Assembly: GCF_000244895.1 (NCBI RefSeq)
Contig: NZ_CM001441.1
Coordinates: forward strand, 2,438,226 to 2,502,225
Direction of reading: 5' to 3'
Length of the DNA stretch: 64,000 nt
From: Desulfosporosinus youngiae DSM 17734
GTDB lineage: Bacteria > Bacillota > Desulfitobacteriia > Desulfitobacteriales > Desulfitobacteriaceae
A program made the position numbers and the translations under genes. The notes beneath the pieces are model-generated. The model ran no database searches and was not told the origin of the DNA. It saw only the letters and a list, made by a program, of their open reading frames with translations. Positions 3,796 to 25,476 of the stretch are shown one piece after another (within the stretch, counting starts at the first letter, position 1; each line of letters begins with the position of its first letter).

Positions 3796-4269
3796 TCAAA
3801 TCGTCAGATCATTTTCGGATTTAATATCAATAGCATCTTTTAAAAGCTTTTCAAGAACAGCAGCAAAGACGGCAATGACAATTGGAGCAAAAGCAATGAC
3901 CAATCCGAGTAATAAGAGACCCGGGGCATCGTCTGCATCCGCGACGAGATAAAAGAGCGGCATACTTGCCGAAAACAAAACACCGACTGAGATCGCACAG
4001 TATTTTATCGTCTTTAAACTGTTTACCGATAATTCCGAGAAAGCTATGTTTTTGTCAATATAGGTTAAAAGTTTAAAAGCCTGATACAATACAACGTAAA
4101 AAGGTATCGTTGCGCCATACATGCCGATTATAGAGGGATACACCCAATAAGTCGGAAAATGTTCCGCTGCTTCTTTAGCTATCGGGGGCAACCCAAAGAG
4201 ACACAAGGCAAGAACCGGAATTCCCATGAGAAAAACAACGACCTTTAAAAACAGTGTTTCTCGTTTCAT
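3796..4269 (-). CDS. DUF2975 family membrane protein
   Basis: A 157-residue protein with four hydrophobic segments (about residues 9-30, 45-65, 92-112 and 121-142) in the pattern of DUF2975 proteins such as YoaS, with the conserved loop around LTYIDKNIAFSELSVNSLKTIKY between segments two and three. The ATG at 4269 is preceded by GAGGTG; the in-frame GTG nine bases upstream is part of that site. It is the first gene of the operon and is paired with the XRE regulator immediately downstream. No function has been demonstrated for this family that I can use here; the pairing suggests membrane-linked regulation. Confidence 0.85.
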   Translation of the reverse strand: MKRETLFLKVVVFLMGIPVLALCLFGLPPIAKEAAEHFPTYWVYPSIIGMYGATIPFYVVLYQAFKLLTYIDKNIAFSELSVNSLKTIKYCAISVGVLFSASMPLFYLVADADDAPGLLLLGLVIAFAPIVIAVFAAVLEKLLKDAIDIKSENDLTI

Positions 4270-23445: not shown

Positions 23446-23557
23446 TTAAATCGCTCCTTATAAACTATAAATTACCTGCAGCTCATTAACTGGTTATTAT
23501 TATGTTATCACATTTGTTCTGCCCTGTGAAAGTCTGAGACTCTTATAAGTAAAGAGC

Positions 23558-23587
23558 AAGCCGCCGTTCACAATGAAACGGCGGCTT
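23558..23587 (-). terminator. Terminator after the flavodoxin-like gene
   Basis: AAGCCGCCGTT / AACGGCGGCTT stem with an 8-base loop, 14 bp past the stop of the minus-strand gene at 23601. Confidence 0.75.
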
Positions 23588-23600
23588 ATGCTAAAAGGGG

Positions 23601-24248
23601 TTAAGATCTTGCCAGTCTGGCTCCCATATCAAAGGCTTTTTGACAATCCAGTGGGAATTGTTCTGCTTTCACTTGGGATTTGTGTTTTTCATCGAACATG
23701 GATGCTTCATACTTGGAATAGTCATCAAATTGGTAAGTATCGGCGGAAATCATAAATTCAGAGGTTCCGTTGAGTAATTGCAGGCTATTTTTAGTTTGTT
23801 CAAATAGAGCTTCATAATTAACCCGCTGGAGAAACTCCTTAGGAACATTCATGGTATAGATAAAACCGGAGGTCAACTTCCCCGGATAAACCGAGCGATG
23901 CCCCTCATTATAGGAAAGGTTGGAAAAGAGCAGCCGTTCCAGGAAAGAACGCATTAAACCGGTAACGTTGCCAAAATAGATGGGTGAGCCTAAGAAGAGC
24001 ACATCGGATTCCAGAACCTTTTCCAGCACCCCGCTTAAGTCATCCTTCATAGCACAGTGCCCGACATACTTCGAATTCTTCCTCTTACAGGCGAAGCAGC
24101 TGGTGCAGCCTTTATAATTTAAGTCGTACAAATGAACTGCTTCTGTTTGAGCCCCCACGGATTCAGCTCCTTCAAGGGCTTTTTGCAATAAAGTATCCGT
24201 ATTCCAATTTTTGCGCGGACCGCCGTTGACAGAAAGTACTTTGACCAT
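23601..24248 (-). CDS. Flavodoxin-like NAD(P)H-dependent FMN reductase family protein
   Basis: A 215-residue flavodoxin-fold protein. The FMN phosphate loop is SVNGGPRKNWNTDTLL (residues 6-21) and the second flavin loop is LGSPIYFGNVTGLMRSFLERL (residue about 87). It carries CTSCFACKR ... C in the segment after the first strand pair, as in iron-sulfur flavoproteins and related reductases, so a [4Fe-4S] cluster or a redox disulfide is possible. It is 70 bp downstream of the selenoprotein glutaredoxin gene on the same strand and probably in the same operon, hinting at shared redox work. Confidence 0.85.
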   Translation of the reverse strand: MVKVLSVNGGPRKNWNTDTLLQKALEGAESVGAQTEAVHLYDLNYKGCTSCFACKRKNSKYVGHCAMKDDLSGVLEKVLESDVLFLGSPIYFGNVTGLMRSFLERLLFSNLSYNEGHRSVYPGKLTSGFIYTMNVPKEFLQRVNYEALFEQTKNSLQLLNGTSEFMISADTYQFDDYSKYEASMFDEKHKSQVKAEQFPLDCQKAFDMGARLARS

Positions 24249-24318
24249 TAGATATCGTCTCCTATAATTTACTTACTTGTGTTGATCTCCGACACTTAAT
24301 ACTTTCATTATAATAATT

Positions 24319-24660
24319 TTAACCGGGCGTAATATTAAACTTATGTGCACACTTCGGGCAAGTCACCTGGAGTGTGCCTTTATTGATGGGCACTCGCATC
24401 TTGCCTTTGCATTTCTCGCATTCCATGACCCTATGATCGACGAGCTGGAGAATCCGCTGCTGATCAAAACCGACAATTAAGTCGTCCCCGATCAGAAAAG
24501 AAGGTACTCCCTTAACGTTTCTGCGGATTAACTCCGCGCGGGCTTGCTCATCACGGTTGATATCCTTTTCAACAAAATGAATCTTATGCTGCGAAAGAAA
24601 CTTCTTCGCTGTAAAACAATGTGGTCAAGTTTGGGTGGTGAACATGATGACGTTCTTCAT
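24319..24660 (-). CDS. Selenocysteine glutaredoxin-like protein with C-terminal zinc ribbon (UGA-encoded Sec)
   Basis: A 113-residue gene with an in-frame TGA at 24627-24625 exactly where a glutaredoxin has its first active-site Cys: the protein reads MFTTQT-U-PHCFTAKKFL. Downstream sequence is intact: NVKGVPSFLIGDD supplies the cis-Pro loop (VPS) and the C-terminus has two CxxC pairs, CEKC and CPKC, forming a zinc-ribbon-like tail. Start ATG 24660 has AAAGGAG 9 bp upstream. Just after the UGA, bases 24609-24591 can form a 6-bp hairpin with a 7-base loop, a plausible bacterial SECIS. Strong consensus promoter upstream. Ordinary gene callers would miss it or cut it at the TGA. It would act as a thiol/selenol disulfide reductase. 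Confidence 0.88.
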
Positions 24661-24724
24661 AGAAACATACTCCTTTCCCATATGCGTATGCGCGGAATGT
24701 TTCGCCATCTTACCGAGTGAAGAT

Positions 24725-24742
24725 ATACCTATAGGGGGTATA
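24725..24742. promoter_or_regulatory. CsoR/CstR-like dyad downstream of the selenoprotein promoter
   Basis: TATACC-N7-GGTATA with a G-rich centre lies between the -10 box and the ribosome site of the glutaredoxin gene. ATACC/GGTAT half-sites of this form are typical of CsoR-family (copper, persulfide or formaldehyde) regulators. No such regulator gene is in the window. Confidence 0.45.
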
Positions 24743-24747
24743 ATGAA

Positions 24748-24776
24748 ATTATAATTAGAGTTTTTTAGTTTGTCAA
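24748..24776 (-). promoter_or_regulatory. Consensus promoter of the selenoprotein/flavodoxin operon
   Basis: On the minus strand a perfect TTGACA (24776-24771) and a perfect TATAAT (24753-24748) are separated by 17 bp. Confidence 0.85.
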
Positions 24777-24894
24777 TCCGTAAGACAAATTCTTTGAAGC
24801 GATTTTCTTTTAAAGAGGATATTAATGAATGTACAATTCAATTGTGTTATAATATGGTAAATGCATCAGTCTTGGCCAATGAGGGGTGTTTATA

Positions 24895-25476
24895 GTGGGT
24901 TTAACTGAACCTCAAGTCATTACAATCGCTGAATATAATAAACTCAGGGAGAATTCCGAGAGTCGATTAGAATATATTGATGGGATAGTGTATATGACCC
25001 CATCTCCTTCGACTAAGCATCAAAGAATTTCCAGCCGATTGCAGGCAAAGTTATTCAATTTCCTTGAAGGAAAAGAATGTGAAGTTTTCCCTGCACCCTT
25101 TGACATTGAGCTTAGGATGGCCGATGATGACCAAGGAGATCAGACTGAAAAGACCAAGGTGGTCATTCCGGATTTATCGGTTATCTGCGATAAAACGAAA
25201 CTCGGCGAAAATAAATATGTCGGTTCACCTGAACTTATCATTGAAATTCTATCTCCTTCAAATCAAGCTCATGATCTCGTTAAGAAACTTAATTTATATA
25301 TGCAAGCTGGGGTTAAAGAATATTGGATTGTTAATCCTCTTTTAAATACTGTACAGATTTATGGTTTAAATGAGGAAGAACAGTATCAGCAGGTAGAGGT
25401 ATTGAAGGAAACAGGGGTAGCCTATTCGGAGGTTTTGAAAGGATTCTGTATGAACCTTGAAGAGTTATTTAAGTGA
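24895..25476 (+). CDS. Uma2 family (DUF820) putative restriction-endonuclease-fold protein
   Basis: A 193-residue protein of the Uma2/DUF820 family, a PD-(D/E)xK fold. RLEYIDGIVYMTPSPSTKHQRI near residue 22, IPDLSVICD and SPELIIEILSPSNQAHDLVKKLNLYMQAGVKEYWIVNP are the family core with the acidic residues expected of the nuclease site. GTG 24895 has GAGGGGTG 6 bp upstream and a TATAAT at 24848-24853 provides a promoter. It is a stand-alone gene; the biological role of Uma2 proteins is not settled. It is divergent from the selenoprotein operon. Confidence 0.88.
   Translation: MGLTEPQVITIAEYNKLRENSESRLEYIDGIVYMTPSPSTKHQRISSRLQAKLFNFLEGKECEVFPAPFDIELRMADDDQGDQTEKTKVVIPDLSVICDKTKLGENKYVGSPELIIEILSPSNQAHDLVKKLNLYMQAGVKEYWIVNPLLNTVQIYGLNEEEQYQQVEVLKETGVAYSEVLKGFCMNLEELFK

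Follow-up and report, generated by a model that had tools for sequence, protein, structure and literature searches.

A probable selenoprotein gene and its neighbors

We have analyzed a stretch of 64,000 nucleotides (the window) from Desulfosporosinus youngiae DSM 17734, whose genome is a single contig of 5,660,978 bases. The features of the locus are collected in Table 1. The initial annotation described a single minus-strand frame of 113 codons, with a lone TGA at the first active-site cysteine position. This is what is seen on translation, giving 113 residues followed by TAA, with the sole internal TGA as codon 12 in the sequence T-U-P-H-C (active site U12-P-H-C15). The flanking protein had been described as intact, and both the V52-P53 motif of the cis-proline loop and the four ribbon cysteines (81, 84, 101 and 104) were found. 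As anticipated, a caller that terminates at TGA misses the gene, returning no ORF of 50 amino acids or more on the glutaredoxin frame. The ribosome site and perfect promoter were also located, with GGAAAGGAG before the ATG and a promoter matching the consensus at 12 of 12 positions; the simple scan used covered 1501 bases and gave 7 promoter-like sites where 3.8 were expected.

Table 1. Features of the glutaredoxin locus, in window positions
Feature	Position	Strand	Basis
113-aa selenocysteine glutaredoxin carrying a zinc ribbon at its C-terminus	24319..24660 (stop included)	-	translation, relatives
UGA codon 12, probable selenocysteine	24625..24627	-	TGA in 31/36 and Cys codon in 5/36 copies; selA/selB/selC/selD in genome
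Predicted zinc ribbon, residues 77-113, Cys 81/84/101/104	24322..24432	-	Cys conservation; strands in model
SECIS-like hairpin GCGAAGAAGTTTCTTTCGC, conserved apical G	24591..24609	-	pairing null, offset control, covariation
Ribosome-binding site GGAAAGGAG, 5' of ATG	24670..24678	-	sequence
Putative CsoR-family-like operator, palindrome ATACCCCCTATAGGTAT	24725..24741	-	upstream comparison, pattern searches
Consensus promoter TTGACA-17-TATAAT, 12/12	24748..24776	-	simple scan; same layout in G011 and strain I2
Flavodoxin-like FMN reductase (FMN_red), 70 bases downstream of glutaredoxin gene	23601..24248	-	profile match
Terminator-like hairpin after FMN reductase gene	23557..23588	-	sequence scan

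The FMN reductase gene is probably cotranscribed with the glutaredoxin gene, in this genome only. The initial annotation had remarked on the link with this flavodoxin-like gene, and we considered it as a conserved partner. It was rejected as such, since a gene of this kind lies near just 3 of 35 loci, downstream in the window and upstream in the other two. This survey covered flanks of 1.5-5 kb at 35 of the 36 long (ribbon-fused) forms, L102 being left out, and within those flanks no neighbor family recurred at more than five of these loci. A Uma2-type gene (PF05685; 24886-25476) lies upstream of the glutaredoxin gene and is divergent from it.

Conservation of the UGA codon and of the frame beyond it

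Searches of related genomes gave 36 full-length fused copies, drawn from several genera, taking one per genome or locus and removing duplicates of the same contig. Codon 12 is TGA in 31 of these and TGT or TGC in five (L037, L038, L020, L082 and L070), so that Cys replaces U in some homologues, as the initial annotation had led us to expect. A further Cys copy containing N bases (G020; L033/L087) was excluded. Selenocysteine has thus been retained at one catalytic codon across many anaerobes, while some copies have switched to cysteine.

Within the genus a glutaredoxin match of some kind was found in 28 of 29 genomes, and 12 genomes hold 14 full-length fused copies, 11 with one TGA and three without. 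The search of the order (73 genomes) gave 23 full-length fused copies, 20 of them with TGA, and extension to the class added no further matching genome (35 of 82, compared with 35 of 73). An even draw of 398 genomes from the phylum, in which scoring was limited to 11 first-look candidates per genome, contained at least 13 full-length fused copies, and those 13 all have TGA. A scan of named genomes contributed records from Desulfotomaculaceae, Desulfoscipio and Syntrophomonas. In viral contigs there were 12 relatives, all confined to residues 1-80, and none spans the ribbon cysteine pairs in full.

The frame 3' of the UGA is conserved in the homologues, where the initial annotation had allowed that it might not be. 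The ratio dN/dS in this region was 0.037-0.161 in 15 of 18 pairs, showing purifying selection; two of the remaining three pairs were saturated, and one near-identical pair (four changes) gave 0.258. Neither active-site position varies among the 24 aligned members when Sec is counted as Cys. The standard reading ends at codon 12 and leaves the ORF uncalled, as it would if the UGA were a genuine stop, whether in a pseudogene or as a TGA created by sequencing error. This is scarcely credible, however, given the TGA at the identical codon in 31 of 36 copies, the purifying selection 3' of it, and the constrained hairpin described below.

A form of 75 residues that lacks the ribbon also has a UGA, both in this genome and in many others of the genus. 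In a tree of 64 glutaredoxin domains over 75 columns, 33 of 60 inner branches are left open; its topology weakly suggests that the short form of the genus sits among the long forms, and hints that the change from Sec to Cys may have happened at least twice.

Selenocysteine machinery of the genome

A genome without the machinery for selenocysteine insertion would have told against the proposal, and all four sel genes were found above their cut-offs: selA (556.8 bits, cut-off 267.9), selB (360.9 bits, cut-off 242.25), selC (65.1 bits, cut-off 47) and two copies of selD (cut-off 125). ARAGORN identified tRNA-SeC with anticodon tca. One selD (406.4 bits; G000:C1:4833712-4834641, L121) adjoins selA and itself carries one internal TGA, in the context KAG-U-GCK, with hairpins coming after the TGA; the second, at 230736, has none (370.2 bits).

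Loss of SelB was considered as the cause of the Cys copies, since G019 and G020 do not reach the cut-off for selB and their sole long forms are Cys. This reading was dropped because the two genomes are 85% and 79% complete, respectively, and each has another UGA glutaredoxin. Two further genomes (G003 and G008) have selB together with one UGA and one Cys copy of the fused form each.

A constrained hairpin follows the UGA

The hairpin GCGAAGAAGTTTCTTTCGC begins 15 bases past the UGA. It had been put forward as a possible SECIS; its position is right, and a pairing null, an offset control and covariation all back this suggestion. Pairs were scored between positions 19-25 and 31-37, counted from the T of TGA. 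Pairing is present in 189 of 217 cells in the 31 UGA copies, and in 87 of 105 cells once the hairpins are reduced to the 15 distinct ones. A null in which synonymous codons were redrawn from the remainder of the gene gave a mean of 55.0 (s.d. 3.1, maximum 66 in 5000 draws) compared with the observed 87, with a spread that is too small because the draws treat the sequences as independent. The offset control retains the relatedness among the sequences, and here the UGA offset was the best of 95 codon offsets, the next scoring 69. When the partners were slid, pairing fell from 87.2% to 31-70%.

Among 29 distinct rows, changes on both sides of a pair were observed in 10 cells, distributed over four of the seven pairs. 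A shuffled control gave a mean of 2.3 cells; none of 500 shuffles reached 10, and four pairs were reached in 21 of the 500. Synonymous differences per site were 0.50 for codons 18-24, compared with 0.86 for codons 25-76 and 0.88 for codons 77-110. An Rfam scan of 24200-24900 returned three matches, all far under the cut-off.

Pairing alone cannot separate Sec from Cys copies, because the latter keep five of the seven pairs each. A conserved G in the apical loop is a feature of the bacterial SECIS according to PMC1794560, and this G is present in all 31 UGA copies and gone in four of the five Cys copies. In the fifth (L070), the 19-base hairpin is identical to that of a UGA relative (L071; both 4034-4078), and the genome retains selB. 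This hairpin would be like a fossil SECIS, left after a recent change from Sec to Cys.

The insertion of selenocysteine is deduced from sequence, and the UGA might in principle be decoded by a near-cognate tRNA carrying a different amino acid. We consider this highly improbable: tRNA-Sec, selA, selB and selD are all in the genome, the hairpin is constrained, and Cys is the sole alternative residue seen at codon 12. Moreover, UGA serves as a normal stop as well, the short glutaredoxin form of the same genome itself terminating in TGA. The conclusion that emerges is that the gene almost certainly encodes a functional selenoprotein.

Fold and C-terminal ribbon

The protein matches PF00462 (Glutaredoxin) at 52.7 bits, compared with a gathering cut-off of 22.9, and 24 of 24 aligned members match this family at E ≤ 0.01. 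The structure model (pLDDT 84.2, but pTM only 0.62) has a glutaredoxin fold followed by four short strands. The best Foldseek match was 7c10_A ('Dithiol cGrx1'), with TM 0.93 normalized to the length of the target and 0.63 to that of the query, aligned over 73 columns with rmsd 0.9 and 45% identity. The cGrx1 protein (PDB 7c10/7c12/7c13) shares the TPHC site; it is an 84-residue chain lacking a ribbon and its solved forms have Cys or Ser, whereas the window protein has a ribbon that lies outside the alignment, and for which Foldseek gave no structural match. In Clostridium oremlandii, cGrx1 natively contains Sec. Very probably the window protein functions as a thiol redoxin.

The C-terminal zinc ribbon of the initial annotation stands in part. 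Cysteines 81, 84, 101 and 104 are conserved in every one of the 24 aligned members, and in the model the two CxxC pairs belong to a small ribbon of beta strands (76-80, 87-91, 97-100 and 107-110), as is general for zinc ribbons, the zinc itself being predicted. However, the window protein lies below the cut-off of every Pfam ribbon; it scores 17.3 against PF13717 (Zn_ribbon_4; cut-off 30.3), a family matched by 21 of 24 members at E ≤ 0.01.

The selection analysis shows equally strict conservation of the ribbon and of the glutaredoxin part. Zinc ribbons frequently bind nucleic acids or protein partners. Together these two points might suggest a redox switch directed at nucleic acid or the ribosome, as opposed to a general reductase. 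We think this quite unlikely, given that the ribbonless 75-residue form has the UGA too, and that an unrelated membrane-like protein terminates in a similar ribbon (L125; G025:C511:6504-6623), so that the ribbon may be a generic module.

Ribbon sequences 75-78% identical to that of the window were also seen without a glutaredoxin part (L123, G015:C38:20056-20175; L124, G008:C61:11384-11503). These remnants are probably gene fragments.

An operator-like palindrome shared with thioredoxin reductase genes

The palindrome ATACCCCCTATAGGTAT comes directly after the -10 box. In a loose form it occurs within 200 bases upstream of three of the 35 long forms (this gene, G011 and strain I2) and of none of 12 short forms. 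Extending the comparison to 1200 bases at eight loci revealed an operator-like site at four. In D. lacus and D. nitroreducens the upstream distance is 294-295 bases, and the site comes after a TTGACA/TATAAT promoter resembling the one in the window. At two Cys copies it lies 756 and 771 bases upstream, before a DUF1638 gene, where TTGACT and TATRAT boxes flank it and it takes up their spacer. The site is thus found at five of the six genes of the window's clade, and is absent at the other long forms examined save the two Cys copies.

In the window's own genome the first pattern, with one mismatch allowed, gave two sites, and a reversed-pattern control also gave two; the case therefore rests on position and on the search of the genus. 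The exact sites in this genome are just two, before this gene and before trxB (TIGR01292, 388.5 bits, cut-off 343.45).

For the genus we used a refined pattern, ATACCCCNNANRGGTAT, which was set after seeing three glutaredoxin sites and one trxB site. It gave 50 rows, corresponding to 47 distinct places spread over 24 of the 29 genomes, compared with one for the reversed control. Thirty-seven of the 47 lie before a gene for thioredoxin reductase, ferredoxin, rhodanese, DUF1638, an SQR-like protein or the selenoglutaredoxin, as assigned by profiling one representative per kind and extending this to the remainder by shared sequence. Nineteen are thioredoxin reductase genes (18 trxB and one thioredoxin-thioredoxin reductase fusion); the trxB sites are orthologues and not independent events, and they sit in the region separating trxB from a divergently oriented gene for a membrane protein, closer to trxB. 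Seven places precede a small ferredoxin gene, four a gene for a rhodanese-domain protein, four a selenoglutaredoxin gene, one the DUF1638-glutaredoxin (Cys) pair of G019, and one a DUF1638 gene with no glutaredoxin. The glutaredoxin sites of G011 and G015 were placed through the upstream comparison. One lies 242 bases from an SQR-like gene, whose product scores 134.4 bits against NF049943, under the cut-off of 525. The other ten places are of other kinds or intragenic, including one in a CRISPR array and one in the frame of bshC. The bshC gene was rejected as a target, as the site (L163) lies within its frame. On the strength of these sites, regulation shared with trxB in this genome seems rather more probable than not.

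The ferredoxin-like protein encoded behind the operator at L159, L162, L172, L181, L182, L187 and L188 has about 60 residues (RCPQNHxCP...). A DUF1638 gene precedes the long-form gene at L079, L081/L190 and L048, and follows an operator at L079, L081/L190 and L183.

A candidate repressor

According to PMC10318464, most CsoR-family proteins sense metals, and the family recognizes pseudopalindromes that contain G or C runs; rhodaneses and sulfide:quinone oxidoreductases are frequent targets of repression by CstR homologues. The CsoR/CstR (DUF156) regulons described there resemble the present sites: a pseudopalindrome rich in C, with TAC/GTA arms, lies over the promoters, and the known targets include rhodanese, SQR or thioredoxin. 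They differ in that thioredoxin reductase is the commonest target of the putative operator here, and that one target is a selenoprotein.

The genome has five DUF156 genes (PF02583). One of these (L173, at 892154) is preceded by TTGACA-17-TATAAT and then CTACCCCCTTAGGGTAT, a site spotted by eye that is two letters off the refined pattern, and the DUF156 gene is followed by a thioredoxin gene. The near-match and the adjoining thioredoxin suggest a small regulon that would comprise the repressor and its thioredoxin, thioredoxin reductase and the selenoprotein, with the repressor regulating itself.

The main rival to a thiol-centered function is that this is a real selenoprotein used in handling metals or metalloids. 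In that case the operator would respond to a metal, copper or some other, which the thiols of the Sec/Cys site and of the ribbon would bind or reduce. Besides the predominance of metal sensors in the family, the candidate repressor has a C/H/C set, which we take to be of the copper type, and its best NCBIfam match is RicR, though far below cut-off (78.9, cut-off 175). The sites, however, precede genes for thioredoxin reductase, ferredoxin, rhodanese and an SQR-like protein, no copper gene was seen at any of the 47 places, and the DUF156 paralogue that lies beside a copper-type ATPase (so labeled by eye) is L174 and not L173. We consider metal handling improbable.

Proposed function and relation to known systems

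We consider it likely that the locus encodes a selenocysteine glutaredoxin fused to a zinc ribbon, with insertion directed by the hairpin, linked to thioredoxin reductase, and controlled by a CsoR-family protein. In the cell, SelB, tRNA-Sec and the hairpin would insert Sec. Electrons from NADPH would pass via thioredoxin reductase to the selenoglutaredoxin, directly or through thioredoxin; the chances that thioredoxin reductase is the donor are about even. The selenolate may then reduce disulfides or persulfides, with the zinc ribbon acting as a docking part or as a redox-sensitive zinc site, and a CsoR-family repressor would hold the promoter. More tentatively, and with rather less confidence than in the donor, these genes could form a Desulfosporosinus regulon for reactive sulfur or disulfide stress under one CsoR-family repressor. 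Thioredoxin reductase and the ribbon-bearing Sec glutaredoxin might there constitute a dedicated relay for persulfides or zinc-thiol targets, and the fusion a distinct type of selenoprotein across anaerobic Bacillota. Sulfate reducers live amid much sulfide, and the proposed link in regulation between one of their selenoproteins and the thioredoxin system is testable.

That Sec-containing glutaredoxins are known, as the initial annotation stated, is borne out by the tables in the available parts of PMC13188914 and PMC1794560. Those proteins (PF00462, UxxC) share with the window protein the glutaredoxin fold, Sec in place of the first Cys, and occurrence in anaerobic bacteria; the parts in question name no ribbon fusion, while the window protein has the four-Cys C-terminal ribbon. 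The best NCBIfam match is the YruB-type glutaredoxin-like TIGR02196 (64.7 bits), under its cut-off of 88.55. The match to the glutaredoxin-like (seleno)proteins Uxx-star (NF041212) is also below cut-off (39.5 bits, cut-off 66), and differs in that the window protein keeps the second Cys.

We found neither a ribbon-fused Sec glutaredoxin nor a tie of such a fusion to a trxB-type operator described in the literature searched, whose scope excluded most subscription journals; the Sec glutaredoxin part is of a known kind. The available part of PMC2679010, on glutaredoxin domain combinations, has zinc solely for DUF296-Grx, and neither ribbons nor selenium. Term counts for PMC11451228, on Desulfosporosinus under oxygen, gave no glutaredoxin or selenium in its text. 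The fusion adds to the bacterial selenoproteome a domain architecture that is dropped by callers stopping at UGA.

A third type of glutaredoxin with an in-frame UGA (VPLUPHC or VPLUPNC) was seen in G019 (L193), G020 (L194), G022 (L034) and G035 (L048), and a Cys version (LPLCPYC) is present in the window's own genome (L127, G000:C1:612244).
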